Positions 7,007 through 59,251 of a DNA stretch of 64,000 bases are shown piece after piece; the first letter of the stretch is position 1, and each line of letters starts with the position of its first letter. Source of the DNA: an uncultured Eubacteriales bacterium. Lineage in GTDB: Bacteria; Bacillota; Clostridia; Oscillospirales; Oscillospiraceae. The stretch lies in the NCBI GenBank assembly GCA_900317905.1, contig ONIN01000011.1:85399-149398 (forward strand). The letters are read 5' to 3'. The notes beneath the pieces were generated by a model, which worked only from the letters and a program-made list of their open reading frames with translations, searched no databases and had not been told where the DNA came from. Made by a program: the position numbers and the translations under genes.

Positions 7007-7033
7007 GCTCCCGGACTTAGTCTGCCCGGGAGC
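7007..7033 (-). terminator. Hairpin between the acidic-protein gene and spoVAC
   Basis: GCTCCCGG (7007-7014) pairs with CCGGGAGC (7026-7033). Read on the minus strand the 3' arm contains the spoVAC ribosome site, and no T run follows, so it may be a weak terminator or a translation-controlling hairpin. Confidence 0.4.
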
Positions 7034-7040
7034 CGCTTGT

Positions 7041-7448: not shown

Positions 7449-7564
7449 GGGCAAAGCCTCCCAAAACGCCAATGATTGGTTATTATAGCACGCTGGAACC
7501 GAAAAAGCCATAGGAAACTGCGGACTGTTAAACGGTTTTGCACATAATACCACCAGACCCACTT

Positions 7565-7614
7565 GGCTCTCCCTTTGGGAGAGCTGGCGCGAGCTTGCGA
7601 GCGACTGAGAGGGT
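7565..7614 (+). repeat. Palindromic dispersed repeat, copy 1 (GGCTCYCC...GAGGG type)
   Basis: It starts with GGCTCTCCC, TTT, GGGAGAGC hairpin arms and continues through GCGAGCGACTGAGAGGG. The same architecture recurs at 30533-30576, inverted at 30681-30722, and at 35548-35603, which marks it as a repeat family. Confidence 0.75.
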
Positions 7615-7616
7615 AT

Positions 7617-7686
7617 GCCGCCCCTCTGTAGGGCGGGTCGCTTGCGCCCGCCGTATTGTAGGGGACGGCGTCCTCGACGTCCCGGC
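7617..7686. repeat. GC-rich GTAGGG/CCGCC repeat unit
   Basis: Contains GGGCGGGTCGC-TTGC-GCCCGCC hairpin arms and a GTAGGGGACGGCGTCCTCGACG run. I recall similar units scattered in intergenic regions of gut Clostridia. No second copy was found in this window, so the call is tentative. Confidence 0.4.
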
Positions 7687-7740
7687 AGGAAAGCCTGCCG
7701 CGCCTGACAACGTCGGGCGAATCCGCACGATCTCCCCACA

Positions 7741-14334: not shown

Positions 14335-14348
14335 TCCAAATCAACAGC

Positions 14349-14385
14349 AAACGGCTCGCCGCAAATCCGCGGCGGGCCGTTTTTC
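14349..14385 (+). terminator. Rho-independent terminator after the AGCS gene
   Basis: ACGGCTCGCCGC (14351-14362) pairs with GCGGCGGGCCGT (14369-14380, one G-U), then TTTT. Confidence 0.88.
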
Positions 14386-14386
14386 A

Positions 14387-14415
14387 TTGACAGGGGGAGG
14401 GGAAACGGGTAAAAT
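14387..14415 (+). promoter_or_regulatory. Sigma-A promoter for the SLH-glycosidase gene
   Basis: TTGACA (14387-14392), 17 bases, TAAAAT (14410-14415), starting right after the preceding terminator. Confidence 0.7.
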
Positions 14416-14446
14416 CAAATTGAGAAATTAGGAAAGGAGAAATAAG

Positions 14447-42007: not shown

Positions 42008-44545
42008 TTATTTTGCTCTGTAAAGGAACGTGACGGTCTCGCCGCGGGAGCAGCGGTTCATGGGGGAGAAGTGGGTGGCATCGGTGCCTTTGGTGATGCC
42101 CTTTTCCAGCGCCCACAGCACCGCGTCATAGTAAAAGCTGCCCTTGGAAACATCGGTGAAGGGGTTCTTGGCAGAAACCTTCTCGCTGCCGTTTGCCCGA
42201 TAGAGGAAGGTGACGAACTCTCCTCTGGTGCATACCATTCCGGGGGCAAAGTGGGTCTTGTCGATGCCGGTGGTGATGCCTTTTTCCAGCGCCCAGAGGA
42301 CTGCTTGATAGTAGTAGGCATCCTTTGCCACATCCTTAAAGGGATTGTCCGCTTTCTTCGGCTCCGGCATGCCTGCGGCTCTCCAGAGGAAGGTGACGAT
42401 CTGGGCACGGGAGGCGTCGCCGTTGGGGGAGAAGTGCGTCTTGTCCACACCGGTGGTGATGCCGTTTTTCACCGCCCAGAGTACCGGATCATAGTAATAA
42501 GCGCCTTCCGCCACATCCACGAAGGGGTTGGCGGGTGTCTCCGGCGCCAGGAGCTCTACCCGGACGTAGCTCCGCTCCTCGGTGACCGGTTCCTCCTCCC
42601 AGGGATCCTGGTGGGTCACGGTCATGTCGCCCACATCCAGCACCCGATACCGGGCGTTGGCGGACATGAGGATCTCGTTTTCGCTGCTGTGGGCCACCGC
42701 GTCGATGTTCACGGCGCCCTGGGCCTCCATGGCCTCCTTGGAGGCGTAGATGATGAACAGCGTGTCGCCGAATCCGCAGGCCACGGCGGCGTCCGGGGTG
42801 GTGCTGATCATGACGGGATCCGTAAACTCCCTGCCGATGGCGTCGATGAGCTGTTCTCTGGTGGGCACCGTGTCGGTGCCGGCGGCGGCCATCAGCTGGC
42901 TGTCATAGACGCCGCTGTAAAGGATCAGATCGTCCTGCATTTTGCCGCGTCCCAGCTCGGTGAACAGGCCGTGGTTCATCATCAGATACATCTGCTCGAA
43001 GTCGTCGCCGAAGAAGTTCACGGCGTTGGCCCACATCTCCGGGTCGTGGTTCTGTACGGCGGTCATGGCCATGAAGTGGGGGATGACCTCACCCTTGTAG
43101 CGCATGATGTAGGGGATCAGATCCAGAGAGAGGGGGTTGCCCTGCTTCTCGTTGTAGGCGAGGTATTCCGCGCTCCAGCGTTCGAACTCCTCGTTGGAGA
43201 TCACGCGGAAGTCCTTGTAATCCGCCTCGCGGTAGATGCTCTTGTCACCGGCGGCGGATTTGGTCTCCACGGCATTGTCAGCGGACAGGGTGGAGGCCAG
43301 CGCCTCGGCTTCCGCTTCCACGTCACCGAAGGCCTTGGGATCCACCTTCACCCCTTCGGGGATCTTCATATCTGTGATCTCGGTTTCCGCGAAGGCATAG
43401 GCCTTGATCTCCTTCAGACTCGCGGGCAGCTGAACGGATGTCAGCGGGCAGCTGGCGAAGGCATAGGACTCGATGACCTCCACGCCCTCCGGCACCGTGA
43501 AGCCGGTCTGGGGTTCCTCGGCGTAGGGATCCTCCGGCATCCAGTAGAGGAAGGTCTTGCCGTCGGCGGTCAGCAGCGCGCCGTCCCTGACCTGATAGGC
43601 GTCGTTCTCCTCCAGACTGACGGAGGCGATACTGGAGCCGTAAAATGCGCCGGGCTCAATATCGGAGACGGTACTGCTGATGTTGAGATCCGTCATTCCC
43701 GCGCCGAAGAAAGCCCTGGACTCAATGGTTTTCGTTCCCTCATGGATGGCGAAGTAATTCACCGCGCCGCAGCCGGACAGAACGCCCGTGGGAATCACCG
43801 GGGCGGTGAAATCCGCGCTGGCCATCTGCTCGCAGTTTTCAAAGGCGTAGCCGCCGATGGATTTCAGCGCCGTGCCGTGGTAGAAGGCCTGCAGGCTCTT
43901 GCAGCCGGAGAAGGCCCGCTTGCCGATGCTGGTGACGCTCTCGGGGAGGCGGATCCGGGTCAGCGCCTCGCAGCCGTAGAAAGCGCGATCGGGGAGCGTC
44001 ATCAGATTCCCGCTGCCGAAGGAAGCGCTGGCAAGACTGCCGCAGCCCGCGAAGGCGAAGTCACCCAGTTCCTCCAAATCCGCCGGGAGCACGATGCTCA
44101 CCAGCGCGTCACAGCAGAGGAAGGCGCCTTTGCCGATCCGCTGCACATGGTCCTGGAGATCCGCCAGCGTCAGGCGGCCGCAGCCGGAGAAGGCACCGTC
44201 GCCGATCTCCAGCAGGGAGTCGGGCAGATAGATCCGCTCCAGAGCGCTGCAGCACTCGAAGGCGTAGTCGCCGATGCGCCGGATACCCTCCGGCACGTGG
44301 ACGCGCTTCAGGCAGACCATGCCCTGGAAGCAGCCGTCGCCGATCTCGGTGACGGGCTTGCCGTCGATCTGGGCGGGGATGGTGAGATTTGCGGCCTTTC
44401 CGGTGTAACCGGTGAGAGTCAGACCGTCTTTTCCGGCGGTGTAGCGATAATCGCTGCCGGCGGCGAAGGCCGCGGGGCAGAGACTCACCACCAGCGCCAG
44501 AACGCACAGAACGGTCAGGAACCGTTTCAATCCTTGATGTTTCAT
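42008..44545 (-). CDS. SLH-anchored leucine-rich repeat (BspA-like) surface protein
   Basis: An 845-residue exported protein. After a signal peptide (1-28) come some ten BspA-type (LRR_5) repeats of about 23 residues (roughly 45-400) with the IGDGCFQGM/IGDYAFECC pattern, as in adhesins of gut and oral bacteria. A middle region of about 240 residues has no family I recognise. Three SLH repeats (about 665-845) anchor it to the wall. AAGGAGGAAA precedes the ATG on the minus strand. Likely role: adhesion or surface binding. Confidence 0.92.
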   Translation of the reverse strand: MKHQGLKRFLTVLCVLALVVSLCPAAFAAGSDYRYTAGKDGLTLTGYTGKAANLTIPAQIDGKPVTEIGDGCFQGMVCLKRVHVPEGIRRIGDYAFECCSALERIYLPDSLLEIGDGAFSGCGRLTLADLQDHVQRIGKGAFLCCDALVSIVLPADLEELGDFAFAGCGSLASASFGSGNLMTLPDRAFYGCEALTRIRLPESVTSIGKRAFSGCKSLQAFYHGTALKSIGGYAFENCEQMASADFTAPVIPTGVLSGCGAVNYFAIHEGTKTIESRAFFGAGMTDLNISSTVSDIEPGAFYGSSIASVSLEENDAYQVRDGALLTADGKTFLYWMPEDPYAEEPQTGFTVPEGVEVIESYAFASCPLTSVQLPASLKEIKAYAFAETEITDMKIPEGVKVDPKAFGDVEAEAEALASTLSADNAVETKSAAGDKSIYREADYKDFRVISNEEFERWSAEYLAYNEKQGNPLSLDLIPYIMRYKGEVIPHFMAMTAVQNHDPEMWANAVNFFGDDFEQMYLMMNHGLFTELGRGKMQDDLILYSGVYDSQLMAAAGTDTVPTREQLIDAIGREFTDPVMISTTPDAAVACGFGDTLFIIYASKEAMEAQGAVNIDAVAHSSENEILMSANARYRVLDVGDMTVTHQDPWEEEPVTEERSYVRVELLAPETPANPFVDVAEGAYYYDPVLWAVKNGITTGVDKTHFSPNGDASRAQIVTFLWRAAGMPEPKKADNPFKDVAKDAYYYQAVLWALEKGITTGIDKTHFAPGMVCTRGEFVTFLYRANGSEKVSAKNPFTDVSKGSFYYDAVLWALEKGITKGTDATHFSPMNRCSRGETVTFLYRAK

Positions 44546-45505: not shown

Positions 45506-46807
45506 TTATTCCATTTCGTCGGGGGCGATTATCGGCTCCTGGATGCGGGCAATATCGCTGGGCATCTCACGCTTGACCGCATAGGGGATCCCGCGCTTTT
45601 CCAGCTGGCGGAGGAAGCTCTCCCGAACGGTGTCCTCCAGAAATCGCTGCTGGACGGAGAGAAAAATCTTCCCGTTCACGGCGGCGATCTCCACCATGAG
45701 ACTGAAGGTGTTGGGCGGGTGCGTCCAGAATTCCCGGACATAGCCGCCCACGTTGGGATGCTTCCACTTTCCGGTGTAGCTGACCAGAAAGCTCACAAAC
45801 CCCTCGCCGCCGCTGAAGGCCTGACCGAAGGCCTGTTTCTTTTCCTCCAGCGTCTTGAGACTCTCCGCCGCTGCCCGGATCTGGACGGCGTTCATGGCGG
45901 TGTCCCGCCGGACACGGTCAGCGTCGCTCTGAATGAAGGTCTTGCCGCGATAGACCGTGCACTGCCGGTCGAAGGGCATGGCCTCCACCCGGCTGTCGTA
46001 ATTCAGCAGCGCCATGCCGAGGCAGTTGTGGTGGGTCAGCTCCGCGCCCAGCATGGGTCTGGCGTTGATGACGTATGCGCTGATGATGTCCTTGCTCCGC
46101 TCCGGGTACAGATCTGCGATGGCGTGGGCCATCAGCAGAGAGATCAGCGTCCCGGGGCTGGCGTCGTTGGCAGAGCTGTAACGGATCAGCGTCGCCTCCG
46201 GGATCTCCAGATCCCAGATGGTGGGCCCGGAGGGCGTCAGCCCACCGTCGGTCTCCAACGTAAAGGCAGGCTGAAAGGCCGCTGCCGGCGGAAGCTTACT
46301 CTCCGGGACCTCAATGGTATCCTGTGGGTCCAGCGTCTCCGCCTCCGAAATCGGCGTCTCCAGCATCGGGATCCCGGGGTCGATTTCGGTTCCGTACCGC
46401 GCCTTGCAGTAATACCCCAGCAGGGTGGCCAGCACCTGGTACATCCCGGTGCCGTCGGTGATCCCGTGGAAGAAATCCAGATGGATCCGATCCTCGAACC
46501 AGGCCACGGCCCAGGGCTGGAAGTTCGTCTCTTCGCTGAAGAGCGAAACGCGCTCGTCGGTGTGCAGCAGCGCGATGGAGCGGTGGTTTTCCGCATAATA
46601 GAACCCGTCCTCTGCCGCCCGCAACTCCCGGGAGAAATAGGGATACCGCAGCTGCGTCTTCTCCAGCGCCTTCAGGAGCAGATCGCCGTCGATCTCGTCT
46701 GCGAGCCGCACCGTCAGCCTTACGGTGTAGTCCACCTTTTCTCCGAAAGCCCCGTGGACGTGCATCATGTCCCCGGTGGTGACGGGGATGCGTCTACAGT
46801 CTTTCAT
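45506..46807 (-). CDS. Condensation-domain-like acyltransferase (alcohol acetyltransferase type)
   Basis: A 433-residue cytosolic protein of the CoA-dependent acyltransferase/condensation superfamily. The catalytic HxxxDG motif is HGITDG near residue 114, followed by the long second half with NARPMLG and GKWKHPNVGGYVREFW. Relatives acylate alcohols, amines or lipids. Last gene of the five-gene minus-strand operon, starting 2 bases after the triple-fusion gene without its own strong ribosome site, so it is translated by coupling. It may be the metabolic output, or just a co-regulated enzyme, of the signalling operon. Substrate unknown. Confidence 0.78.
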   Translation of the reverse strand: MKDCRRIPVTTGDMMHVHGAFGEKVDYTVRLTVRLADEIDGDLLLKALEKTQLRYPYFSRELRAAEDGFYYAENHRSIALLHTDERVSLFSEETNFQPWAVAWFEDRIHLDFFHGITDGTGMYQVLATLLGYYCKARYGTEIDPGIPMLETPISEAETLDPQDTIEVPESKLPPAAAFQPAFTLETDGGLTPSGPTIWDLEIPEATLIRYSSANDASPGTLISLLMAHAIADLYPERSKDIISAYVINARPMLGAELTHHNCLGMALLNYDSRVEAMPFDRQCTVYRGKTFIQSDADRVRRDTAMNAVQIRAAAESLKTLEEKKQAFGQAFSGGEGFVSFLVSYTGKWKHPNVGGYVREFWTHPPNTFSLMVEIAAVNGKIFLSVQQRFLEDTVRESFLRQLEKRGIPYAVKREMPSDIARIQEPIIAPDEME

Positions 46808-46809
46808 GG

Positions 46810-48369
46810 TTACAGATTCTTTTTCAGCGTCAGGATGTTCTTGCCGTCCTGATACTCATAGGCTACGTCGTCCATGAGCTGCTTGGTCATGAAGATGCCA
46901 AGACCGCCGATCTCCCGATGCTCCGCGTCAAGGGTCACGTCGGGATCCTGCTTGGACAGAGGATCGTAGGGGGTGCCGTGATCCACAAAGGTGATGGTCA
47001 CGCTCACCGGCTCCTGAGACACCTCCACCCGGACGGTGGTGTTGCCCTTTTCCGGGGCGTAGGCGTAGCTTGCGATGTTGATGAAGATCTCCTCTACCGC
47101 CACGCCGATCTGCATCTGAGCCTTCATGGGGCAGCTGGCTCCCTCCAGATGCTCGTCCACGAAGGCCTGCACATCCGGCAGATTTTCGGGAACGGCCTCG
47201 ATCACCAGCTCGTTGGGGGAGAAGGTCAGGGTGTCCGTCTGCTCCAGCAACTCCAGCAGCTCCGCTTTCCAGTGCTCGATTTCCTGGCGGCGCTTGGGGT
47301 CTTCCAGACCCTTTCTGCGGATGGAGCGGCGGATCAGGCGGGTGTAACCCACGATCCGGGCCTTGTTCTCCACCTCTGTGAGCTTCGCCTCGCAGGTGGT
47401 GCCGAGATATGCGGCCAGGGTCTTTCTCCAGAAGGCCTGCGCGGTCTCGAAATCAAAGCCCTGGAAGCGCTTGATGATCTCATGGTCGCACTCGGAAAAG
47501 CCGATGAAGGCATTGTACATGCTGGCCAGCTCAAACACCGGGTTGCCCACGGCCAGGGTGTCCATGTCGATGAGCAGCACCTCGTCGTTCTGCAGCTCCA
47601 GATTCTTGGTGTGGTAGTCGCCGTGGATCATGTGGTCATCCTGGGGCACGGCCTCCACCAGAGCCAGCAGCTTCTTCGCGGCCGTCTCCGGCAGATGGTC
47701 CTGCAGGAACTGCGCCCAGCCGATGACGGTCTCGCGCATATCCGGCAGCTTTCCCTTGGGCACCTCGGTGCCGTGGATAATCTGGAGCATCTTCACATAC
47801 TCCTGCACGCACCAGTCCATCTTCTCCGGCTCCGTGGCGAGGATCTTGGAGAAGGAGCGGGCGTTTAAGAGCTCAAACACCGAACCGTAGCTGTCGCCCA
47901 CGCGCACCACGTCGTAGGAGATGGCGGTGGGCACGCCGAGGATCAGCGCCAGCTTCGCCACCTCGCGCTCATGCTGGATCTCCGAGAGGGCGTCGGCGTT
48001 GTTGTAGACCTTCACCACGTTGTCCTGGTCGATGCGGTATAGGGTGCCGTTGGCGCCGCGGCCGATCTCCTCGCAGCCCTCGATGCTCACCACGCGGTAG
48101 GCCTTTTCCACCGGCATCAGCTCGGTGAAGCCGGTCATTTCCAGGATCTCATAGACGTCGGAGTTGACATTGATGATCTTCAGATCCCGGGTGTTCTTTT
48201 TCAGTCTGAGGATGACGCGCAGGCCCGCCGAAGAGATATAGTCCAGCTTCTCCGCGTCCAGGACCACAGCCGCCCCGGGCTGGGTGATCTGCGCCTTGAT
48301 GGTTTCTTCCACCTGGGCCGCGTTGCCGGAGTCGATGCGGCCGTTGAGTTCCACACAAATCTGTTCCAT
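46810..48369 (-). CDS. STAS-kinase-HATPase triple-fusion signalling protein
   Basis: A 519-residue soluble protein with three domains. Residues 1-95 are a STAS antagonist domain with the phosphorylatable Ser in YISSAGLR. Residues 100-360 are an aminoglycoside-phosphotransferase-like kinase with catalytic HGDYHTKN and LLIDMDT. Residues 385-519 are a GHKL anti-sigma kinase with N box VAVEEIFINIASYAY, G1 box DHGTPYDP and G2 box GGLGIFMTKQL. The STAS plus APH part resembles family TIGR02172; the added RsbW-like end puts antagonist and kinase in one chain. GAAAGGAG precedes the ATG. It is the fourth gene of the operon and could be the switch core answering to the membrane phosphatase. Confidence 0.85.
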   Translation of the reverse strand: MEQICVELNGRIDSGNAAQVEETIKAQITQPGAAVVLDAEKLDYISSAGLRVILRLKKNTRDLKIINVNSDVYEILEMTGFTELMPVEKAYRVVSIEGCEEIGRGANGTLYRIDQDNVVKVYNNADALSEIQHEREVAKLALILGVPTAISYDVVRVGDSYGSVFELLNARSFSKILATEPEKMDWCVQEYVKMLQIIHGTEVPKGKLPDMRETVIGWAQFLQDHLPETAAKKLLALVEAVPQDDHMIHGDYHTKNLELQNDEVLLIDMDTLAVGNPVFELASMYNAFIGFSECDHEIIKRFQGFDFETAQAFWRKTLAAYLGTTCEAKLTEVENKARIVGYTRLIRRSIRRKGLEDPKRRQEIEHWKAELLELLEQTDTLTFSPNELVIEAVPENLPDVQAFVDEHLEGASCPMKAQMQIGVAVEEIFINIASYAYAPEKGNTTVRVEVSQEPVSVTITFVDHGTPYDPLSKQDPDVTLDAEHREIGGLGIFMTKQLMDDVAYEYQDGKNILTLKKNL

Positions 48370-48419
48370 ATGGGTACTCCTTTCAATGCGCCTGCCCGAA
48401 AAACGGGACGAGGCCGATT

Positions 48420-50066
48420 TTAAGGCTCTTTGCTCAGGGTTTCCCGATCCAGCAGACCAAGCCGGTCTGCCTGGAGGATCAATTCCATTTGCAGCAGGCT
48501 CTGGTTGGCCGCCGCAGCGAAGATGCCGAAGAGGATGTCGAAGATCATCGCGTCGATCAGCGCGGTGGACGGGATCTGCAGCTCGGCGAAGATCATGATA
48601 TAGGCCAGCAGGTTGGCCCCCGGCACCGGCGGCGTCGCCACAAACAGCACCACCGACAGCACCATGGCAGCCAGCAGCCAGCCGGCGGACACGGGCACCT
48701 GATACCGGGCCGCCGCGAACAGGGTAAACATCAGCGTACCAATGACGTTGGCGGGCATCAGCAGCACCAGACCGTAAGGGAGACTCACCGTGGCAAAATG
48801 CCGCTCGATCCCCAGCCTGAGGATGCTGTCCTGCTCCATCTTGCCGTATCCGGCGTCCAGACTGCCGGTGCGCACCGCCGTGCGGAAGGCGGGCCAGAGC
48901 TTTTTCAAAAGCACCTTGAGCTTCACGCCCTTGCGCTTCGAGACGTAAAAGGCGATGCCCAGCATGACCGCAGCGGCGACCAGTATCGCCAGGATCAGCA
49001 CGCCCCAGAGACCGCCGAAGGTCAGCAGACTGCCGCTGATGATCTCCATGCAGAGCAGGATCCCGGCAAAGGCGGGCACCAGACGGCTGACGTTCTCGGT
49101 CATCAAAAGGCCCACCGCGTCCCCCTGTCGGATCAGACGCTCCAGACCCTCGGCTCTGGCGCCGACAGCGGTGATGCCGCCGCCCAGCAGGAAGGCCAGC
49201 AGCAGAAGTTGGGGGGTGTTGGACTCCATCAGCGGGGAGATCAAGTCACTGGGCATGACCAGCAGCAGACTCTGCCAGATTTCCGAGACTTCGATGCCGG
49301 GCTTGCCACCCAGAAGCAGCGGCACCCGGGTAAAGACCCCACAGGCGATCACCGCCAGCAGCGCCGCCAGCAAACTCAAAAGAAAGTACCAGAGGAAGAC
49401 CCGTCGGCTGCTGCCGCCCTCCTCCTCAATGGTTCGGGTGTTCAAAACTGAAGTGCAGACCATCAGGAACACCACCGGGCCGGAGAGCACCGTCAGCATC
49501 CGGACCCAGAAATCATAAAGGGGCATCAGGAAGCCCGTGATCAGCCCCTCCTGCGCGCCGGCAGTCAGCCAGGAACGGAGCAGCAATCCAGCGCCGACGC
49601 CGATGGCCAGAGCGATCAGCAGCTGCAGCGCGGCATTCATGCCCTTTTTCGGAAGATTCAGACGCAGAACATTCTTCCCGCCGGAGTAGCTGTAGAGAGG
49701 AGAGAGGCCCACCGCCGTCAGCAGGGAACCGCTCCAGTCCTCCAGCTCCGAGGCAGTCTTGCTCAGCGGGTTGAAGACGTCGCCCGCCAGCTCGATCTGC
49801 ATGCTGGGTCTGCCGAAGCGGCTGGAGACCTTCAGCCGGAATCGCTCCTTCTCTCCGAAACGCTCTCTGAGCCGGAGCAGCGATTCCTCGAAGGAGAAGC
49901 GGATCCGGATCCGGTTCTGCCGCTCTACCCCAAGCTGCTCCAGCAGCAGGTCGATCTGCTCGGAGCAGGTCTCGATCCCCATGGCGTTCAGCGGAAAGGT
50001 GTCATCAAAGCTGACCGGCTCGCCCCGCAGCGGGTGCAGCAAAGTCCTTTTCTTTGTGTTGGCCAT
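48420..50066 (-). CDS. SDF-family (dicarboxylate/amino acid:cation) symporter with N-terminal HATPase-like domain
   Basis: A 548-residue protein. From about 140 on it is a sodium:dicarboxylate symporter-type membrane protein with about eight helices and the late loop region PPVPGANLLAYIMIF. The first 130 residues are soluble and read like a worn RsbW-type ATPase: FSFEESLLRL at the N box (the key Asn missing), AGDVFNPLS at the place of the DxGxPFDP box, and a closing strand SGGKNVLRLNLPKK like that of RsbW proteins. It probably no longer hydrolyses ATP but could bind a STAS partner. It follows the phosphatase gene with a 1-base gap and precedes the triple fusion. A transporter acting as sensor or target of partner switching is my inference. 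Confidence 0.75.
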   Translation of the reverse strand: MANTKKRTLLHPLRGEPVSFDDTFPLNAMGIETCSEQIDLLLEQLGVERQNRIRIRFSFEESLLRLRERFGEKERFRLKVSSRFGRPSMQIELAGDVFNPLSKTASELEDWSGSLLTAVGLSPLYSYSGGKNVLRLNLPKKGMNAALQLLIALAIGVGAGLLLRSWLTAGAQEGLITGFLMPLYDFWVRMLTVLSGPVVFLMVCTSVLNTRTIEEEGGSSRRVFLWYFLLSLLAALLAVIACGVFTRVPLLLGGKPGIEVSEIWQSLLLVMPSDLISPLMESNTPQLLLLAFLLGGGITAVGARAEGLERLIRQGDAVGLLMTENVSRLVPAFAGILLCMEIISGSLLTFGGLWGVLILAILVAAAVMLGIAFYVSKRKGVKLKVLLKKLWPAFRTAVRTGSLDAGYGKMEQDSILRLGIERHFATVSLPYGLVLLMPANVIGTLMFTLFAAARYQVPVSAGWLLAAMVLSVVLFVATPPVPGANLLAYIMIFAELQIPSTALIDAMIFDILFGIFAAAANQSLLQMELILQADRLGLLDRETLSKEP

Positions 50067-50067
50067 T

Positions 50068-51849
50068 TCAGACCTTCTCCTTAACGTGATACTGCATACA
50101 CATCATGGTGAGATCGTCAAACTGCTCCGCCTCCAGCACGAAGGCGTCCACGGACTTTCTCACGTTTCCGAGCACCTCCACCGGATCGGCGTCGGGGGAG
50201 CGGTTCAGCGCCTCCAGCATCCGCTGCGTGCCGAAGAGCCGATTCTCCGCGTCTGTTGCCTCGGGCACGCCGTCGGTGTAGAGGAACAGCTTCGTGCCCG
50301 GCTGCAGCTGCAGTTCATAGTCTTTGTAATGAATGCCCTCCATGCCGCCGATGACCAGTCCGTGCTTGTCCTTCAACAGATGGAAAGGCTCGCCGGGCTG
50401 CTGGATCACCGGGTACTCGTGCCCGGCGTTGGCGGCGGTGAGCTTCCCGGTGGAGAGCTCCAGAATGCCCATCCACACCGTGACGAACATCTCCTGGGGA
50501 TTGTTGGCACAGATGGCGTTGTTGGTGTCGGTCAGGACCTGGGCTGGTGATTTGCCCATCTTGGCGTTGCTGGAGAGAATGATCTTGGAGGCCATCATGA
50601 ACAGCGCCGCGGGAATGCCTTTTCCGGAGACGTCCGCCATGACCATGCACAGATGATCCTCGTCGATGAGGAAGAAATCGTAAAAGTCGCCGCCCACCTC
50701 TCTGGCGGGATCCATGGAGGCGTAGATGTCGAACTCTCTACGCTCCGGGAAGGGCGGGAAGATGCTGGGCAGCATGGACTTCTGGATCTGGGTGGCCATG
50801 TTCAGCTCAATGTTGACCCGCTCGCGCTCGGCGGTGATGGTCTCGATCTTGCTGAGATAATCGTCGATCTCCACGGTCAGCTCGGAGACGTCCATGGACA
50901 GCTGGCCGATCTCGTTGTGGGGTCTCACCAGAGCGAGGTTCTTCACCACCGCCTTGCTGTCCTTGCTGTCCCGATAGAGACGGATGTTCTCCTGCACCGC
51001 CTTGAGCGGGTGGAGCACAAACACAAAGATCAGCGTCAGGCAGATCAGCGACAGGCCGATCTGATTGAGGATCGCAAAGACCGTGTTCGTCCGGGACTGG
51101 GCAGTCATGCTGGCGCGCAGATCGGTGAGGTTGTAGGTCATGCCGATCAGCACCGTATGGCCGCCAAGCTCACAGAAGCTGGCATAGTAATCCATATAGT
51201 TTCCGGCTTCGGCCAGATAGCTGTGATGCTCCGCGGCCCGGGCCATGGCCAGCTGCTGGCTCTCCCCGACGGTGACCGCGTGGCCGAGGGGGTAGACCTC
51301 CTCATATTCCGTGCCGCGCACCGCGCCGGGGTCGGCGGCGCTGAAGAGGAAGAACTGGGTGTCGTAAGGCTCCTCGGTCACCACGCAGAACAGATAGTCC
51401 ACGTGGCAGGCCTGCTTGATCTCATTCAGGCGGGTGATGAGCCAGGAGTAGGTGATCTCTGCGTAGAGCTTCTGATCCTCCTCCGGCAGCACCTCCAGCT
51501 CCTCGGCTCTGGCATATTCCAGCGACAGATTCGGGTGCCGCTGACTGAACAGCCGGCACTTTCCGGCGGTCATGCTGTCGGCGGTGAATTCCTCGTCATA
51601 GTCGATGTCCATGGCGTCGGCGTGGGTGTACCAGTAGTGAAACATCCATTCCCAGGCGGGATACTCCGTCACAGAGCGCTCTATCTCATCCGAGATCTGG
51701 GCGGCGTAGAGCTCCGTCTGCCGCTTCACGCTCTGACCGGAGAGCTCCTGCTGGGTGAAGTATGTCAGAAGACCCGTCACCAGCACGCCGAGGGCAAAGA
51801 GGATCGCGACCTGCAGGATGATGCTGCCGCGAAGTTTTTCCTTCTTCAT
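50068..51849 (-). CDS. Membrane sensor PP2C (SpoIIE-type) serine phosphatase
   Basis: A 593-residue protein. Membrane helix near 11-31, extracytoplasmic sensor of about 235 residues, second helix near 270-290, HAMP-like and coiled-coil linker, then a SpoIIE/RsbU-type PP2C domain (about 370-590). All metal-binding blocks are present: VGGDFYDFF, MADVSGKGIPAALF, NAGHEYPV, LYTDGVPEA and FDDLTMM. Such enzymes dephosphorylate a STAS antagonist in response to a signal, here from outside the cell. The gene starts 11 bases after the STAS gene with a poor ribosome site, so translation is coupled. Confidence 0.9.
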   Translation of the reverse strand: MKKEKLRGSIILQVAILFALGVLVTGLLTYFTQQELSGQSVKRQTELYAAQISDEIERSVTEYPAWEWMFHYWYTHADAMDIDYDEEFTADSMTAGKCRLFSQRHPNLSLEYARAEELEVLPEEDQKLYAEITYSWLITRLNEIKQACHVDYLFCVVTEEPYDTQFFLFSAADPGAVRGTEYEEVYPLGHAVTVGESQQLAMARAAEHHSYLAEAGNYMDYYASFCELGGHTVLIGMTYNLTDLRASMTAQSRTNTVFAILNQIGLSLICLTLIFVFVLHPLKAVQENIRLYRDSKDSKAVVKNLALVRPHNEIGQLSMDVSELTVEIDDYLSKIETITAERERVNIELNMATQIQKSMLPSIFPPFPERREFDIYASMDPAREVGGDFYDFFLIDEDHLCMVMADVSGKGIPAALFMMASKIILSSNAKMGKSPAQVLTDTNNAICANNPQEMFVTVWMGILELSTGKLTAANAGHEYPVIQQPGEPFHLLKDKHGLVIGGMEGIHYKDYELQLQPGTKLFLYTDGVPEATDAENRLFGTQRMLEALNRSPDADPVEVLGNVRKSVDAFVLEAEQFDDLTMMCMQYHVKEKV

Positions 51850-51859
51850 GTCAGCGGGT

Positions 51860-52159
51860 TTATTCGATGGTCAGGATATCCGAAAAGCCGGTGACCTCAA
51901 AGATCTCCTGAATGGTATCGCTCACATGGACGACCTTCATTTCGCCCTGCTGGCCCATCCGCTTCTGAGCCATGAGCAGCACCCGGAGCCCGGCGGAGGA
52001 GATGTACTCCAGCTTTTCAAAATCCAGCGTCAGCCGGGAAAGATCCGAGACCGCCGATTTGATGGCCTCCTCCAGCTGGGGCGCCGTGATGGTGTCAAGC
52101 CGTCCCTCCAGGGAGAAGACCGCGTTGTCGTTTTCGATGGCTTTCGTGATATTCAGCAT
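51860..52159 (-). CDS. STAS-domain anti-sigma factor antagonist
   Basis: A 99-residue single-domain SpoIIAA/RsbV-type protein with the phosphorylation loop LEYISSAGLRVLL; the second Ser is the usual site. It is nearly the same motif as in the triple fusion. First gene of the operon, with AGGAGG before the ATG. In partner switching the unphosphorylated form sequesters an anti-sigma kinase; its phosphatase is probably the next gene and its kinase the HATPase of the triple fusion. No sigma factor gene is in the operon. Confidence 0.93.
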   Translation of the reverse strand: MLNITKAIENDNAVFSLEGRLDTITAPQLEEAIKSAVSDLSRLTLDFEKLEYISSAGLRVLLMAQKRMGQQGEMKVVHVSDTIQEIFEVTGFSDILTIE

Positions 52160-52226: not shown

Positions 52227-52256
52227 ATCATACCACAAATCGCGGCACAGTTCCAA
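52227..52256 (-). promoter_or_regulatory. Candidate promoter of the partner-switching operon
   Basis: On the minus strand TTGGAA (52251-52256), 18 bases, TATGAT (52227-52232). Confidence 0.5.
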
Positions 52257-53713: not shown

Positions 53714-54085
53714 ATGGACGGAAGACCACCCAAGAGCAAGGGCTTTTTCGAAAGCGTCTACTATGCCCTCGTGGGCACTTTCTACGGTTTTAAGACCGAG
53801 AAGAATTTCCGCACCTATCTGCTGATCTGCACCACGTTTTTCATCATCAACTGTCTGTGTCATGTGACCATGCTCCAGCACGTGGTGTTCATCGTCTGCC
53901 TGGGCAGCGTGTTCTCGGCGGAGATGCTCAACACCGCCATCGAGCACATCATGGACTTTTACACCCCGGAGATCCACCCCGAGGTCAAGATCATCAAGGA
54001 TCTGGGCGCGGCGGGGGTCTGGATGGCCGGCGGCGCATTCTTCATCATGGAGGGGATCTACATATGGAACGCCCTGGCGCACTGA
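53714..54085 (+). CDS. Diacylglycerol kinase / undecaprenol kinase family protein
   Basis: A 123-residue three-helix membrane kinase of the DgkA family. The signature EMLNTAIEHIMDF with HPEVKIIKDLGAAGV and the N-terminal EKNFRTY are clear. In Gram-positives these enzymes mostly phosphorylate undecaprenol or diacylglycerol. In this cluster a lipid or prenyl alcohol from the neighbouring enzymes is a plausible substrate. The next gene starts inside its 3' end. Confidence 0.88.
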   Translation: MDGRPPKSKGFFESVYYALVGTFYGFKTEKNFRTYLLICTTFFIINCLCHVTMLQHVVFIVCLGSVFSAEMLNTAIEHIMDFYTPEIHPEVKIIKDLGAAGVWMAGGAFFIMEGIYIWNALAH

Positions 54086-54660
54086 TCCGCGGGATCTATG
54101 TCACCGGAATGCCCGTGATCATGGGCGGCGTGGGGAACATGCTCTTCACGAAAACGCCGCTGTATCAAAAGCACCGCGCGCCCATGGACGGGGGAAAGGT
54201 CTGGAAGGACGGCAAGCGGATCTTTGGTGACAACAAGACTTGGATCGGCTTTTCCTCCATGGTGGGCATCACGGCGGCCTCCCAGATGGTCTGGGGAAGT
54301 CTCTGTCAGAAGAAAGGCTGGAACGCCCTCCACGACCTCTACCGGGTGCGGGGCAACAGCGCATCGCTGAACCTGAAATACGGCCTTCTCAGCGGCCTCG
54401 CCTACGCCGTCTGCGAGCTTCCCAACAGCTTCGTGAAGCGGCGGGTGGACATCCGCCCCGGCAAGACCGAGCAGGGGAGCCTGGGAAAGGTGTTTTTCGT
54501 GGTGGATCAGATCGACTCCCTGCTGGGCGTCTTTCTGGTGCTGAAGGCCATGAGCGGCATTTCCTGGACGCGATACGCCCAGTACATTCTGGTGGGCGCC
54601 GGCACCCATGTGGGCGTGAATCTGTGTCTCTATAAGCTGCATATCAGAAAGAATCTTTGA
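54064..54660 (+). CDS. CarS-like CDP-archaeol/CDP-diglyceride synthase (DUF46 family)
   Basis: A 198-residue membrane protein of the CDP-archaeol synthase (CarS, DUF46) type, related to CdsA. Diagnostic stretches are GDNKTWIGFSSMVG near 55-68 and SFVKRRVDIRPG followed by VVDQIDSLLG, which form the CTP and metal site. It should activate a phospholipid acid with CTP to give a CDP-lipid. The ATG has GGAGGGG upstream and overlaps dgkA by 22 bases. Direct fusion to the pssA and psd steps downstream fits a dedicated head-group pathway. Confidence 0.82.
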   Translation: MERPGALIRGIYVTGMPVIMGGVGNMLFTKTPLYQKHRAPMDGGKVWKDGKRIFGDNKTWIGFSSMVGITAASQMVWGSLCQKKGWNALHDLYRVRGNSASLNLKYGLLSGLAYAVCELPNSFVKRRVDIRPGKTEQGSLGKVFFVVDQIDSLLGVFLVLKAMSGISWTRYAQYILVGAGTHVGVNLCLYKLHIRKNL

Positions 54661-54672
54661 TTGGGGAAAGAA

Positions 54673-55272
54673 ATGAAGAAACCACTGTTTATCGGCGTGT
54701 TCAACCTCGCCAACTGCGTCACCTATCTGGGCATCGCCGCGGCGGTGATCGGCGTCTGCTTCGCGGGTAATCCGAAGATCGCCATGCTGATGCTGCTGAT
54801 CGCCGGCATCTGCGATATGTTTGATGGCCGTGTGGCCCGCATGTTCCCGAGAACGGACGTGGAGAAAAAGTTCGGCATCCAGCTGGACTCCTTCGCGGAC
54901 ACCGTGTCCTTCGTCATCTTCCCGGCGGTGTTCCTGATCGCCCAGCAGCGATCGGTCTGGACGGTAGTGCTGGCGATCCTCTATGTGTTCGCAGGCGTGA
55001 CCAGACTCTGCTGGTTCGACATCACCACCGACGGCGCAACTAAGTATTTTCAGGGCATGCCGGTGACCATGATCTCGCTGTACCTGCCGCTGCTGTATGC
55101 CATCGCGGCGCTGACGAATTTCGCGGGCGTGACCGTGGCCGCGGCCATCGTGATGCTGGTGATGGCGGTGCTCTTTGTCCTGAACATCCCGGTGAAGAAG
55201 CCCGGAGGCAAGGGTGCCATCCTCCTGCTGGTGATCGGCCTTGCCACCGGCGTCATAATGGCGCTGGCATGA
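54673..55272 (+). CDS. pssA: CDP-alcohol phosphatidyltransferase (phosphatidylserine synthase-like)
   Basis: A 199-residue membrane enzyme with the CDP-alcohol phosphotransferase motif: Asp48, Asp51-Gly52, Ala55-Arg56, Gly68, Asp72 and Asp76. The spacing between Arg and Gly is a few residues longer than usual. It should replace CMP in a CDP-lipid with serine. The psd gene overlaps its stop by 4 bases, which supports serine as the head group. The archaeal counterpart would be archaetidylserine synthase. Confidence 0.9.
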   Translation: MKKPLFIGVFNLANCVTYLGIAAAVIGVCFAGNPKIAMLMLLIAGICDMFDGRVARMFPRTDVEKKFGIQLDSFADTVSFVIFPAVFLIAQQRSVWTVVLAILYVFAGVTRLCWFDITTDGATKYFQGMPVTMISLYLPLLYAIAALTNFAGVTVAAAIVMLVMAVLFVLNIPVKKPGGKGAILLLVIGLATGVIMALA

Positions 55273-56123
55273 AGATCTGGCAGCGCGGCACAGACCGCTA
55301 TGTGGAAGAACCGGAGTACGGCGCGGCTGCCCTCCGCTTTCTCTATGAGACCATCCCCGGCAGAGTGCTGCTGCGGGTGGCGGTGGATCCCAGGATCAGC
55401 CGCTGGCGGGCGAAGTATCAAAAGTCGCCCAAATCCCGAAAGGACATCCTGCCCTTCGCGGAGCGCTGCGGCGTGGATCTCACGGGCTACGACGTTACGC
55501 AGTTTGCCTGCTTCAACGACTTTTTCACCCGAAGAAGGGAAAACCATACCGACGCCGCGGAGGATGAGCTCATCTCTGTGGCCGACAGCCGTCTCAGCGT
55601 CTGGCCGGTGTCGGAGGATCTGGTTTTGACCATCAAGCACAGCCGCTACACCCTCCGCGAGGTGGTGGGCGGCGGCGTGGATCTGGAGCCCTTCGCCGGG
55701 GGACACTGTCTGGTGTTCCGTCTGGCGGTGCAGGACTACCACCGCTATGTGTTCCCGGACGCGGGCAGGGTCGTGAGCTCGGCGAAGCTCCCGGGCGAGC
55801 TGCACACCGTGCGCTCCATCTCGGAGAAGTATCGCGTCTATTCCCGCAACAGCCGGGTCTGCACCCTTCTGGAGACCGCGCACTTCGGCCCCATGCTGCA
55901 GATCGAGGTGGGCGCCATGCTGGTGGGCGCCATCCGAAACCATAAGGTGACGGACTTTCAGCGGCTCCAGGAAAAGGGCTACTTTGAATATGGCGGCTCC
56001 ACGATCCTGTTGATCGTGCCGGAGTCCGTTCAGATCGACGAAGATCTTCTGGAGCAGACCAGACTGGGCTTCGAGACCCAGGTTCGGGTTGGAGAAAAAA
56101 TCGGAGGAAAGAAACCATGCTGA
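55269..56123 (+). CDS. psd: Phosphatidylserine decarboxylase
   Basis: A 284-residue pyruvoyl-dependent decarboxylase. The self-cleavage site is GGST near residue 245 (FEYGGSTILL), with DYHRYVFPDAG and HTVRSISEKYRV as family blocks. It would convert the serine lipid into an ethanolamine lipid. Its start overlaps pssA (ATGA) and its end overlaps ubiA, so the steps are tightly coupled. Confidence 0.94.
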   Translation: MKIWQRGTDRYVEEPEYGAAALRFLYETIPGRVLLRVAVDPRISRWRAKYQKSPKSRKDILPFAERCGVDLTGYDVTQFACFNDFFTRRRENHTDAAEDELISVADSRLSVWPVSEDLVLTIKHSRYTLREVVGGGVDLEPFAGGHCLVFRLAVQDYHRYVFPDAGRVVSSAKLPGELHTVRSISEKYRVYSRNSRVCTLLETAHFGPMLQIEVGAMLVGAIRNHKVTDFQRLQEKGYFEYGGSTILLIVPESVQIDEDLLEQTRLGFETQVRVGEKIGGKKPC

Positions 56124-57040
56124 AACGACTGAACATCTATTTCAAGGAGATGTACCCCATCCTGCCGCGACTGGGCCTGGGCTATCTGATCGCGGGGGAG
56201 ATCTACTTCATCGTCCTGCTGAACCACGGCGTCACCTGGCCCACCATCTGGGCCAGCATCTGCGCGCGCCACGGCATCCAGGAGCTGATCCTCGGCTTCA
56301 CGGTGTTCAGCTTCCTGATGTGGCTGCGCATCGCGGACGACTTCAAGGATTATGAGCTGGACTGCAGGCTCTTCGCCCATCGGCCGCTTCCATCGGGAAG
56401 AGTGACGAAAAAGGATCTGCGGATCTGGCTCTGCATCCTGATCCCGGTGACCCTGGCGCTGAACTTCATCTTCATGAAAAACCGCTGGTTCTGCGCCATC
56501 CTCTATACCTACGGCTCTCTCATGGCCATCTGGTTTTTCCAGAAGTACAAGATCCAGAAATCCTTGCCTCTTGCGCTGGTGACCCACAACCCGGTGCAGT
56601 TCATCATGAACATCTACATCATCTCCTTCGTGGTGATGGAGTACAAGATCAAGGCGGTGGATCTGATCAACGTCTTCGCCTGCTTCACGCTGTACTTCCC
56701 GGCCCTGTACTGGGAGGTCTCCCGCAAGATCCGGGCGCCACAGGACGAGACCGAGTACGTCACCTATTCCAAGCTCTTCGGCTACAAAAAGGCCACCAAC
56801 TTCACCATGTTCGTGGTGCTCATCGACATCTTCACCAACTTCGTGCTGGTGTGGAACCTGTCGAAGCTCAGCGTGGCGGTGCTGGCGATCCTGGTGGGCT
56901 GGATGTGCTGGACCTTCCAGAGCTTCAAGAAGGATCCCACCCAGTTCAAGCTGGTGACCAAGGTGGAGCACTACACCTACATCCAGGAGCTGACGATGAT
57001 CGCCACCGTGGTCATTTTCCTCCTGGTGGGAAAGATTTGA
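56117..57040 (+). CDS. UbiA family prenyltransferase
   Basis: A 307-residue membrane protein with about nine helices. The first Asp-rich motif reads RIADDFKDYELD, followed by RPLPSGRVT, and the second-motif region reads YWEVSRKIRAPQDE, all as in the UbiA superfamily. Members join a prenyl chain to an aromatic ring, haem, or, in archaea and some bacteria, geranylgeranylglyceryl phosphate. Its place between psd and a phosphotransferase inside a phospholipid cluster favours a lipid acceptor, but no GGGP synthase is here. Substrate unproven. Confidence 0.85.
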   Translation: MLKRLNIYFKEMYPILPRLGLGYLIAGEIYFIVLLNHGVTWPTIWASICARHGIQELILGFTVFSFLMWLRIADDFKDYELDCRLFAHRPLPSGRVTKKDLRIWLCILIPVTLALNFIFMKNRWFCAILYTYGSLMAIWFFQKYKIQKSLPLALVTHNPVQFIMNIYIISFVVMEYKIKAVDLINVFACFTLYFPALYWEVSRKIRAPQDETEYVTYSKLFGYKKATNFTMFVVLIDIFTNFVLVWNLSKLSVAVLAILVGWMCWTFQSFKKDPTQFKLVTKVEHYTYIQELTMIATVVIFLLVGKI

Positions 57041-57043
57041 TTT

Positions 57044-59251
57044 ATGAAAGCAGACAATTTGCAGCGGATGCGCGCCCACGGCCTGCCCGTGCCGGCGTTC
57101 ACCGTTGTGACCGCACAAAACCCGCTCCGTCTCGATTTTTCCGAGGCGGAGCGCTTCGCCGTGCGCTCCACCTTCGAAGAGGAGGACTCCGAAGGCTTCT
57201 CCTACGCGGGACAGTTTGAGACGATCTTGAACGTGTCGAAATCGGAGCTGGCGGAGGCCGTCGAGCAGGTGCGCAGGAGCTACCGCGAGGGCGCCAGAGC
57301 TTATGCCAAAGCCCATGGGCTGCAGGCGTCGGAGATCGGAGACGATTCCCCGGTCCTGGTGCAGGAGATGGTGGACGCGGACTATTCAGGCGTATTGTTC
57401 ACCTCCAATCCCACGGGACAATTAAACGAATTGGTCATCGTCGTGGGCAGCGGCCTCGGCAGCAACGTGGTGGAGGACAAGGTGGACACCACCTCCTGTT
57501 TCTACAACAAGGACGACGGCCTTTCTTACTATGAGTGCTCCGGCGATTCGCCGCTGCTGGAAGGGGAGACCCTCCAACGGCTGATCGATCTGGGTCAGGA
57601 GTGCGAGCGGCTCTTCGGCGGCCCCACGGATGTGGAATACGCGGTTTCGAAGTGGGAAGTCTGGCTCCTGCAGGCGAGGCCCATCACCGCCCTGCCGGAT
57701 GGTAACACCATTGTTCTGGACAGCTCCAACATCGTGGAGAGCTACCCGGATCTGACCCTGCCGCTGACCCAGAGCTTCGTCAAGGAGATCTACTACCGCA
57801 TCTTCAAATCCCTGCTTTTGGAAGTCACCCACCGGCACCCCATCGTGCAGGATCTGGACCCGGAGCTGCGGGACATGGTGGACATGGCCAACGGCCGGGT
57901 CTACTACCGGATCTCCAACTGGTACGGCGTGCTGCGGCTGCTGCCGTTTTCCAACGTGTTCATTAAGATCTGGCAGCAGATGCTGGGGGTGGAGAACCCC
58001 ACCGTCACCGCCACCGAGCGGCGGGTGCCGTGGAAGGTCAAGGGCACCTTGGCTTTCGAGCTTCTGCGCTGCGTTACGAAAACGCCGCAGCGGATGGACG
58101 ATCTCTGTGATTTCTATGAGGAATACGCCGTCGAGCTGGATCGCCGCATTCAAACCATCCCTGCGAAAGGCACTCCGGGGCGGATCTCAAGCCTGCTGGA
58201 GATCTACAACGCCATGCTGGAGGACATCCTCTCCAAGTGGCACGTGACCCTCATCAACGACATGTACGCCTTCCTGTTCACCTATCTCGCAGGGAAGCGC
58301 AACAAAGAATCTCTGGCGGACGTGCGGAATCTGGAGAGCATGCGCCCGGTGCAGAAGATCCTGGAGCTCACCGAGGTGGCACGGCAGAACGGTATGGACT
58401 CCGACGCCTACCGAACCGCGAAGGCCGATTTCATTAAAGCCTACGGCGACCGATGTCTGGGAGAACTGAAGCTGGAGACCCACACCTACCGCACCCATCC
58501 GTCTCTGGTGGACGATTTCGTACAGGGCAGGCTGGATCAGCCCACGCTTTTGAAAGAGCCGGAGCCGCAGAAAGCATCGGGAAAAGACCCCTTCTTCGTC
58601 CGCTGCTCCAAGCTGGGCATCCGCAACCGGGAGCGCTCCAGAATGGATCGGACGCGGATGTTCGGCACCATCCGGTATCTGTTCCGCTCTATCGGCGAAG
58701 AGCTCTACGATCAGGGCCGCATCGACGACCCGGAGGACGTGTTCTATCTCGCGGTAGAGGAGCTGGAACAGGCCAGCGGCGACTACCGAAAGCTGGTCTC
58801 CGAACGGAAGAACGACTACGCCATGTATGCGGCCCTGCCCGCCTTCAGCCGACTGGTGTTCCGTGGGGCGATCCGCAATAAGCGGGTGCTCAGCGCCCTG
58901 ACCGACCGGCTCCACCAAAGCGACACCCTCACCGGCGTCTCCGCCGCACTGGGTAAAGCGGTGGGCGAGGCGCTGGTGGTGACCAGCCCTGATCTTTCTC
59001 TGGACACCCGGGGGAAGATCCTGGTGACGAGAAGCACCGACCCCGGCTGGGTCTTTCTGATCGAAAACGCCAGCGGCATCATCGCGGAAAAGGGCTCTCT
59101 GCTGAGCCACACTGCCATCATCACCCGCGAACTCCACAAGCCCTCCATGGTGAACGTCCGGAACGCCTGCACCAGCATCCGCACCGGCGACCTGGTGGAA
59201 CTGGACAGCACCCATGGTACCATCCGGATCCTGCGCCGGAAGGAGGGATGA
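57044..59251 (+). CDS. PEP synthase-like / rifampin phosphotransferase-like enzyme
   Basis: A 735-residue protein with an ATP-binding PPDK-N domain, shortened at its start (FAVRSTFEEEDSEGFSYAGQ, QEMVDADYSGVLFTSNP, LLQARPI up to about 222). A middle domain of about 400 residues follows, then a C-terminal swivelling domain with the phosphorylated His689 in GSLLSHTAIITRELHKPSM. The C-terminal PEP/pyruvate barrel of true PEP synthase is absent, so the layout is that of rifampin phosphotransferase: ATP charges the His and the phosphate passes to a substrate bound by the middle domain. In a lipid cluster that substrate may be a lipid or prenyl alcohol. Coupled 3 bases after ubiA. Confidence 0.78.
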   Translation: MKADNLQRMRAHGLPVPAFTVVTAQNPLRLDFSEAERFAVRSTFEEEDSEGFSYAGQFETILNVSKSELAEAVEQVRRSYREGARAYAKAHGLQASEIGDDSPVLVQEMVDADYSGVLFTSNPTGQLNELVIVVGSGLGSNVVEDKVDTTSCFYNKDDGLSYYECSGDSPLLEGETLQRLIDLGQECERLFGGPTDVEYAVSKWEVWLLQARPITALPDGNTIVLDSSNIVESYPDLTLPLTQSFVKEIYYRIFKSLLLEVTHRHPIVQDLDPELRDMVDMANGRVYYRISNWYGVLRLLPFSNVFIKIWQQMLGVENPTVTATERRVPWKVKGTLAFELLRCVTKTPQRMDDLCDFYEEYAVELDRRIQTIPAKGTPGRISSLLEIYNAMLEDILSKWHVTLINDMYAFLFTYLAGKRNKESLADVRNLESMRPVQKILELTEVARQNGMDSDAYRTAKADFIKAYGDRCLGELKLETHTYRTHPSLVDDFVQGRLDQPTLLKEPEPQKASGKDPFFVRCSKLGIRNRERSRMDRTRMFGTIRYLFRSIGEELYDQGRIDDPEDVFYLAVEELEQASGDYRKLVSERKNDYAMYAALPAFSRLVFRGAIRNKRVLSALTDRLHQSDTLTGVSAALGKAVGEALVVTSPDLSLDTRGKILVTRSTDPGWVFLIENASGIIAEKGSLLSHTAIITRELHKPSMVNVRNACTSIRTGDLVELDSTHGTIRILRRKEG

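Follow-up and report, generated by a model that had tools for sequence, protein, structure and literature searches.

Partner switches have been described chiefly as regulators of sigma factors, and the locus described here raises the question of what such a switch acts upon when the gene that stands among its parts encodes a membrane protein instead. The locus is a five-gene operon on the minus strand (45506-52159) of a 64 000-nucleotide stretch of DNA from an uncultured Eubacteriales bacterium (the window; C23:85399-149398 of assembly GCA_900317905.1, which comprises 2.23 Mb in 38 contigs and is 79.6% complete). We propose that the membrane protein may itself be the target of the switch. The SDF-family protein encoded by the third gene carries an extra N-terminal domain, overlooked in an earlier note on this DNA, which, judged by profile comparison and predicted fold, is a degenerate homologue of the HATPase (GHKL, RsbW-type) domain of partner switches.

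The first 140 residues of the SDF protein lie ahead of its Pfam SDF match and are conserved among its relatives. When 19 such N-termini were compared by hhalign with 11 HATPase domains from like loci, the two profiles matched over 110 columns (probability 97.4%, E-value 1.5e-11), and a search of genomes with the N-terminal profile recovered the operon's own HATPase domain (E-value 2.4e-5). An AlphaFold model of the protein, built from 66 sequences (predicted local distance difference test, pLDDT, 86.8; predicted template modelling score, pTM, 0.84), gives residues 20-137 the succession strand-helix-helix-strand-strand-helix-strand-strand (E-H-H-E-E-H-E-E), which we take to be the order of elements of GHKL domains. 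Comparison of the N-terminal profile with PDB sequences gave no match, and the best 50 of 888 matches of the whole protein in a fold search were SDF/glutamate-transporter structures only, with no separate GHKL match; the assignment to the GHKL fold therefore rests on the profile comparison and on the order of elements.

The residues that bind ATP in such domains are replaced. In an alignment of 66 proteins (65 of 68 full-length open reading frames, ORFs, plus the window protein; L076, L079 and L103 were left out), the position of the N-box Asn is occupied by Arg in 61 proteins, by Cys in 3, by Val in 2 and by Asn in none, the aligned G1 position is never Asp, and even a loose DxGx pattern anywhere in the fused N-terminal part, or a GxG-type pattern (the G2 glycines), is seen in 2 of 66 proteins in each case. 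Because of these replacements the fused domain should not be a kinase. Other residues are strongly conserved, namely Glu60 (66/66), an acidic residue, Glu or Asp, at position 61 (66/66) and Arg65 (61/66), and by this alignment the domain keeps a conserved pocket or surface.

The description of the operon in the earlier note, five minus-strand genes with gaps of 50 bases or less, was confirmed: the five ORFs are intact and are separated by 10, 1, 50 and 2 bases, Pfam bears out the identities proposed for the STAS, membrane SpoIIE, SDF-family and STAS-kinase-HATPase proteins, and the motif YISSAGLR was found in both STAS domains of the window. The features are as follows:
51860-52159, minus strand: free STAS protein (RsbV/SpoIIAA-like), 99 amino acids, with the YISSAGLR phosphoserine site (Pfam STAS 2.4e-16; TIGR00377 2.5e-19)
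50068-51849, minus strand: membrane SpoIIE/PP2C phosphatase, 593 amino acids (Pfam SpoIIE 2.1e-47)
50860-51849, minus strand: N-terminal membrane sensor of the SpoIIE protein, about residues 1-330, without a Pfam family
50089-50664, minus strand: phosphatase domain of the SpoIIE protein, residues 396-587 (Pfam SpoIIE)
48420-50066, minus strand: SDF-fold membrane protein with an N-terminal degenerate GHKL/HATPase domain, 548 amino acids (Pfam SDF 2.5e-35)
49656-50009, minus strand: predicted degenerate (pseudo-)GHKL domain of the SDF protein, about residues 20-137 (hhalign, profile search, AlphaFold order of elements)
48432-49634, minus strand: SDF core, about residues 145-545 (Pfam SDF match from residue 147, AlphaFold, fold search)
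46810-48369, minus strand: STAS - APH-like kinase - HATPase_c_2 fusion, 519 amino acids (Pfam STAS 3.8e-14, APH 1.2e-12, HATPase_c_2 1.6e-23)
48100-48369, minus strand: STAS domain of the fusion, residues 1-90, with YISSAGLR (Pfam STAS)
47224-48090, minus strand: APH-like (TIGR02172-like) kinase domain of the fusion, residues 94-382 (Pfam, NCBIfam)
46813-47217, minus strand: intact HATPase_c_2 domain of the fusion, residues 385-519, predicted STAS kinase of the operon (Pfam 1.6e-23)
45506-46807, minus strand: condensation/acyltransferase-like tail gene, 433 amino acids, with the HxxxDG motif as HGITDG
52227-52256, minus strand: promoter-like TTGGAA-18-TATGAT upstream of the first gene, a pattern only, rejected as significant since the region holds 2 such patterns and 1.8 are expected by chance

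Relatives of the locus were collected in one scan of genome contigs with two peptide patterns taken from six close relatives. The resulting 67 loci are a sample and no complete census; a gene divided between two contigs (L091 and L136) is counted twice among them, and loci L031-L069, which overlap partly with L070-L136, were not added to the counts. A ruminant animal, the rumen or the label RUG (presumably 'rumen uncultured genome') appears in 53 of the 67 locus titles, the other 14 being uninformative, and the titles include Clostridia, Lachnospiraceae, Oscillospiraceae, Coriobacteriaceae, Atopobiaceae, Erysipelotrichaceae and Selenomonadaceae.

Judged by its motifs, the partner switch is complete and conserved in its STAS, PP2C phosphatase and HATPase_c_2 parts. 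The phosphoserine site, in the form [YF][IML]SS[AS]GLR, is present in all 29 free STAS proteins at the 67 loci, and the corresponding motif in 29 of 30 fused STAS relatives. The N, G1 and G2 residues of the window's HATPase_c_2 domain are invariant in 11 of 11 aligned sequences; searched by pattern, the N-box was found in 27, G1 in 30 and G2 in 31 of 32 relatives, and the HATPase profile matched RsbW in the PDB (6m36, E-value 1.9e-5). By these motifs the domain on the STAS-kinase-HATPase fusion is the single intact HATPase of the operon. The APH-like kinase keeps its HGDxxxxN loop and its DMD motif in 30 of 30 relatives each and is 75-83% identical in 17 other genomes, and among 20 phosphatase relatives DD[LI]T occurs in all and the YTDGV pattern in 16. 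The sensors of the phosphatases differ: dCache_1 together with a weak HAMP match was found in L071 and L169, and no Pfam sensor domain was recognised on the SpoIIE protein of L101 or of the window (as background only, a rumen survey reports dCache_1 sensors on serine phosphatases; PMC9540692). A second SpoIIE-type phosphatase domain (G000:C37:28011-28586), with a score slightly above that of the window's, lies on a contig without a STAS or HATPase_c_2 match.

Genes of the switch accompany the SDF gene with its N-terminal domain far beyond the window. They lie within 6 kb at 39 of the 67 loci and at none of 20 plain SDF loci, the latter hand-picked as controls, within the same family of genomes, among SDF matches without the N-terminal part. 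When only loci with flanks of 6 kb or more on both sides are considered, partners are present at 14 of 22 and at 0 of 11 plain SDF loci (Fisher P = 0.0005, uncorrected for kinship). This linkage excludes a chance association. All 90 partner-switch neighbours are on the same strand as the SDF gene, and the number of loci with each kind nearby is 31 for HATPase, 30 for STAS-kinase, 28 for free STAS, 17 for SpoIIE and 2 for the tail gene. The order of the genes is shuffled: STAS-SpoIIE-SDF-STASkinHATP in the window, L070 and L071; STAS-STASkinHATP-SDF in L078, L080-L082 and L090; SDF-STAS-STASkinHATP in L075, L076, L083 and L125; and SDF-STAS-SpoIIEHATP-STASkin in L100, L115 and L133. Such shuffling favours functional linkage over descent as one inherited block. 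Conservation of gene order, which the earlier note had named as a check, was thus found for the association with partner-switch genes, but the exact five-gene order recurs in one close relative only (L091/L136, on two contigs). Besides the partner genes and apparent shadow ORFs, no gene cluster within 8 kb recurs at more than 9 of the 67 loci, the commonest other neighbours being S-layer-homology proteins (9 loci) and an ABC-exporter-like protein (8 loci). Two further arrangements were noted. Arrays of five and three SDF genes with the N-terminal domain stand in L134 and L131 (Selenomonadaceae/Selenomonadales bins), with no partners nearby and kinase-domain matches elsewhere in the genomes; and close to a STAS-kinase-HATPase gene there is a 137-amino acid ORF (L174:9524-9937) that matches only part of the SDF core and may be left over from an SDF fusion.

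Where partner genes are not local they may be elsewhere in the genome. Among 17 of the 28 loci without local partners, which were tested for the kinase domain of the fusion only, 14 belong to genomes that match it (best E-value per genome 1.7e-163 to 1.3e-32). Across 250 genomes of the same family, the kinase domain (E-value ≤ 1e-10 in 45 of them) was found in 16 of 26 genomes with a strong match to the fused domain and in 27 of the 224 others (Fisher P = 6.4e-8, uncorrected for kinship); in this table 26 of 47 fused-domain genomes were kept, because true HATPases are among the weaker matches, and 43 of the 45 kinase-domain genomes, G156 and G076 being dropped as weak. Neither domain was found in three genomes of the same genus, so that the system looks accessory.

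GHKL-like domains are also borne by other membrane proteins. The last 120 residues of an ABC protein of 1134 amino acids (SBP3-permease-ATPase) and its likes match the fused-domain profile (probability 96.4%, E-value 1.3e-9). There are seven such ORFs (L042, L045, L046, L047, L048, L050 and a 455-amino acid ORF in L067; the domain make-up was read from Pfam on L048), and an SDF gene with the N-terminal domain adjoins six of them; no partner-switch gene was found in the retrieved stretches of L045 and L050. A protein of 300 amino acids in L067, a membrane protein by eye, is likewise GHKL-like (97.2%, E-value 3e-11); its gene adjoins a SpoIIE-HATPase gene and is near a STAS gene. Finally, MATE proteins with a C-terminal Pfam HATPase_c_2 match above the cut-off are encoded inside the operon in L169, beside an SDF gene with the N-terminal domain in L055, and about 3 to 4 kb away in L180 and L171. 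Three candidates were rejected: two MATE-like proteins of L044, at 13958-15679 (65.2%, no Pfam HATPase match) and at 5846-7699 (25.6%), were not counted as carriers, and the N-terminus of a glyoxalase protein (L042:3431-4639), GHKL-like by eye, was ruled out by hhalign (0.9%).

For the membrane core, the AlphaFold model and the fold search give the GltPh/GltTk fold (template modelling score by target up to 0.82). As sodium and substrate positions of GltPh we take the NMDGT stretch, including D312, together with D394, R397, N401 and D405. When the SDF core is aligned to an aspartate transporter from the PDB, it shows a YMPAS-like sequence in place of NMDGT, with Pro at the D312 position in all 66 proteins, Gly at D394 in 49, Ala at R397 in 35 and Leu at D405 in 56, and Asn is retained at N401 in 54. 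The earlier note had called the protein an SDF-type symporter; fold and family stand, but with the sodium and substrate positions altered the word symporter is too strong. Another solute may be carried by the core, which may also work without sodium or serve as a sensor. More distant relatives (L060, L062, L063 and L066) retain the N-x-D-G motif in the SDF core and match the fused-domain profile (E-values 3.4e-7 to 2.4e-11); one of them (L060) adjoins STAS and STAS-kinase genes.

To a partner switch that has a membrane protein and not a sigma factor as its output, taken as a full effector model, we give an even chance. The steps, among which we infer phosphorylation, STAS binding to the fused domain, the direction of signalling and the substrate, would be the following: (i) the membrane SpoIIE phosphatase would sense an outside signal and dephosphorylate the STAS protein or proteins; (ii) dephosphorylated STAS would dock on the dead GHKL domain of the SDF protein or, in other species, on the GHKL-like domains of ABC or other transporters; (iii) docking would alter the transport or signalling state of the membrane transporter or transceptor; (iv) the intact HATPase domain of the STAS-kinase-HATPase fusion would rephosphorylate STAS and so act as the reset kinase; and (v) the STAS-APH-kinase fusion would be a second output of the same switch. 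The earlier note had supposed that the switch controls the transporter or the enzyme directly. For the transporter this is strengthened, since the fused GHKL domain provides a physical handle and the gene travels with the switch in many species, and for the enzyme it is weakened by the rarity of the tail gene. A broader proposal, which we hold tentatively and somewhat short of an even chance, is that a dead GHKL domain has been put on unrelated transporters (SDF, an ABC amino-acid importer, a small membrane protein and perhaps MATE) as a docking adaptor for STAS, so that one phosphatase and one kinase would gate transport without a sigma factor.

Several observations weigh against these proposals. 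The GHKL domains of the MATE proteins (L055, L169, L171 and L180) retain, by eye, the N-box Asn and the G1 Asp, and for that reason may be working kinases and not docking domains. The SDF core, with Pro at the D312 position throughout, may not transport at all. No partner genes are nearby at 8 of the 22 loci with full flanks, 3 of the 17 tested genomes have no kinase-domain match, and 27 of the 250 genomes have the kinase domain without a strong fused-domain match. Nor does a mirror-tree comparison (27-29 loci per partner) single out the fused domain: the partial correlations of fused domain and membrane part were r = 0.128 (P = 0.096) and r = 0.195 (P = 0.033) with free STAS, r = 0.141 (P = 0.057) and r = 0.260 (P = 0.0025) with fused STAS, and r = 0.056 (P = 0.29) and r = 0.284 (P = 0.0005) with HATPase. 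With the kinase they were r = 0.253 (P = 0.013) and r = 0.231 (P = 0.016). The domain and the membrane core both track the partners weakly, the core more closely than the domain for free STAS, fused STAS and HATPase.

The kinase domain occurs more widely than the SDF fusion, so that the SDF protein may instead feed a signal into the switch. As a transceptor, its core would sense a solute, its dead GHKL domain would sequester or release STAS, and the output would be the APH-like kinase (a small-molecule or protein kinase), the tail enzyme or both. The altered sodium and substrate positions, above all the invariant Pro, suit such a sensor, and in favour of the kinase as output stand its intact motifs in all 30 relatives, a wider spread (45 of the 250 genomes) and a stronger conservation (75-83% identity in 17 genomes). 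However, the operon already has a membrane sensor in its phosphatase, the distant fused relative in L060 keeps N-x-D-G and yet adjoins STAS and STAS-kinase genes, and the assorted transporter types could equally easily be outputs or inputs. We regard the input arrangement as possible but rather unlikely.

A sigma switch in trans, in which the HATPase domain of the fusion would bind a sigma factor whose gene lies elsewhere, with the transporter gene as a regulated passenger or target, appears improbable. Sigma factors are at hand, with 12 Sigma70_r2 matches above the cut-off in the genome, and the HATPase profile does match RsbW. However, a Sigma70_r2 search, the only one made and on a genome 79.6% complete, found no such gene near the operon, the only one on the contig being about 116 kb off (C23:14918); the statement of the earlier note that no sigma gene is present is upheld to that extent. 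Moreover, the genome's only other HATPase_c_2 match above the cut-off and its only other STAS match are grouped with a sigma gene on contig 11 (160307-161312), a set that looks as would be expected of spoIIAA-spoIIAB-sigF; no further gene cluster recurs at more than 9 of the 67 loci; and the GHKL domain on the transporter itself would be left unexplained. Very improbable, lastly, is a structural or oligomerization remnant whose genes are together through shared regulation, which would fit the lost ATP residues and the mirror-tree result, but not the conservation of Glu60 and Arg65 or the recurrence of like domains on unrelated transporters.

An output at the membrane would place the operon beside, and apart from, the classical switches. 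The roles of the parts in Bacillus (RsbU-RsbV-RsbW and SpoIIE-SpoIIAA-SpoIIAB) are summarized in PMC8256260. Shared with these are the PP2C phosphatase, the STAS protein with a YISSAGLR-type site and the HATPase_c_2 kinase; by contrast, here the locus has no Sigma70_r2 gene, one protein joins the HATPase kinase domain to STAS and an APH-like kinase, and a second, degenerate GHKL domain is predicted on a membrane transporter-like protein. Partner switches with outputs other than sigma factors are established in SypE/SypA, SiaABC-SiaD and BtrU/V/W, where the outputs are biofilm, secretion or signalling proteins. HmpUVW is another partner switch, also named in PMC8256260. All four resemble the system proposed here in being STAS-based and in acting on something other than a classical sigma factor, but a GHKL domain fused to a transporter, as found here, was met in none of SypE/SypA, SiaABC-SiaD and BtrU/V/W. 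The nearest known case is MlaFB, in which a STAS protein, MlaB, is bound to the ATPase of an ABC transporter and thereby tied to a transporter after translation; there, in the passages of PMC7367683 available to us, STAS binds the ABC ATPase itself, and neither a fused GHKL domain nor a kinase/phosphatase switch was met. SLC26/SulP transporters carry a STAS domain (PMC8256260), so that a partner-switch fold is built into the transporter in both cases, with the STAS half fused there and the GHKL half here. GltPh and DctA share fold and Pfam family with the SDF core, which differs in its altered sodium and substrate positions and its extra N-terminal domain. Among the matches listed in a search of full-text literature none concerned a STAS/SpoIIE locus whose transporter bears a GHKL domain, a weak negative since subscription papers are mostly outside the search, and the opinion of the earlier note that no system with this set has been described finds no contradiction among them.

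In these gut bacteria, mostly of ruminants, the membrane protein bears an apparently dead version of the kinase domain of the switch, which suggests that the target of the switch may be this protein and not gene expression. If the dead GHKL domain docks STAS, it would be a plug-in by which an outside signal could set transporter activity fast, by phosphorylation, in bacteria of the rumen and other guts. It could then account for STAS and SpoIIE genes that have no sigma partner, would give degenerate GHKL domains a use, and would define a group of transporters for which expression by itself does not reveal activity.

Neither a credible Pfam match nor any NCBIfam match was obtained for the tail gene. 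The earlier note had proposed a condensation-type acyltransferase, with which the gene is compatible though weakly classified: the motif HxxxDG (H114, D118 and G119) is invariant in six of six homologues, and for family and fold there is a weak match of the six-row profile to 1l5a in the PDB (E-value 0.042). An AlphaFold model from three sequences (pLDDT 44.9) was not used for a fold search. The gene is 90% identical in the close relative L136, distant homologues occur in L105, L043 and L044 (two in the last), and the source genome has one further weak homologue elsewhere (E-value 1.3e-7). With presence at 2 of the 67 related loci, and at four loci in a further locus scan, the acyltransferase was rejected, for rarity, as a core part of the operon, so that the note's inclusion of it in the set did not survive.

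Other genes were observed around the STAS-kinase genes and in the window. An ORF whose start resembles PHP-domain phosphoesterases is beside or near STAS-kinase genes in nine loci (L071, L085, L167, L169, L170, L172, L173, L177 and L178), as identified by Pfam for L169 and by the first residues for the others. Proteins with an HD_4 domain, which we take to be perhaps MESH1-like alarmone hydrolases, are encoded directly before STAS-kinase genes at L060:12488-13102 and L183:7703-8272. On the minus strand of the window (42008-44545) there is a BspA-type leucine-rich repeat and S-layer-homology protein of 845 amino acids, the middle part of which resembles, by eye, an ADP-ribosyltransferase in a motif, with no such Pfam match. 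On the plus strand, a divergent lipid-like cluster (53714-59251) encodes a diacylglycerol kinase, a member of the CarS-like CDP-archaeol synthase family, a CDP-alcohol phosphatidyltransferase, a phosphatidylserine decarboxylase, a UbiA family protein and a PPDK_N/PEP-utilising protein; the pairing of CarS with UbiA in a bacterium recalls archaeal lipid synthesis.

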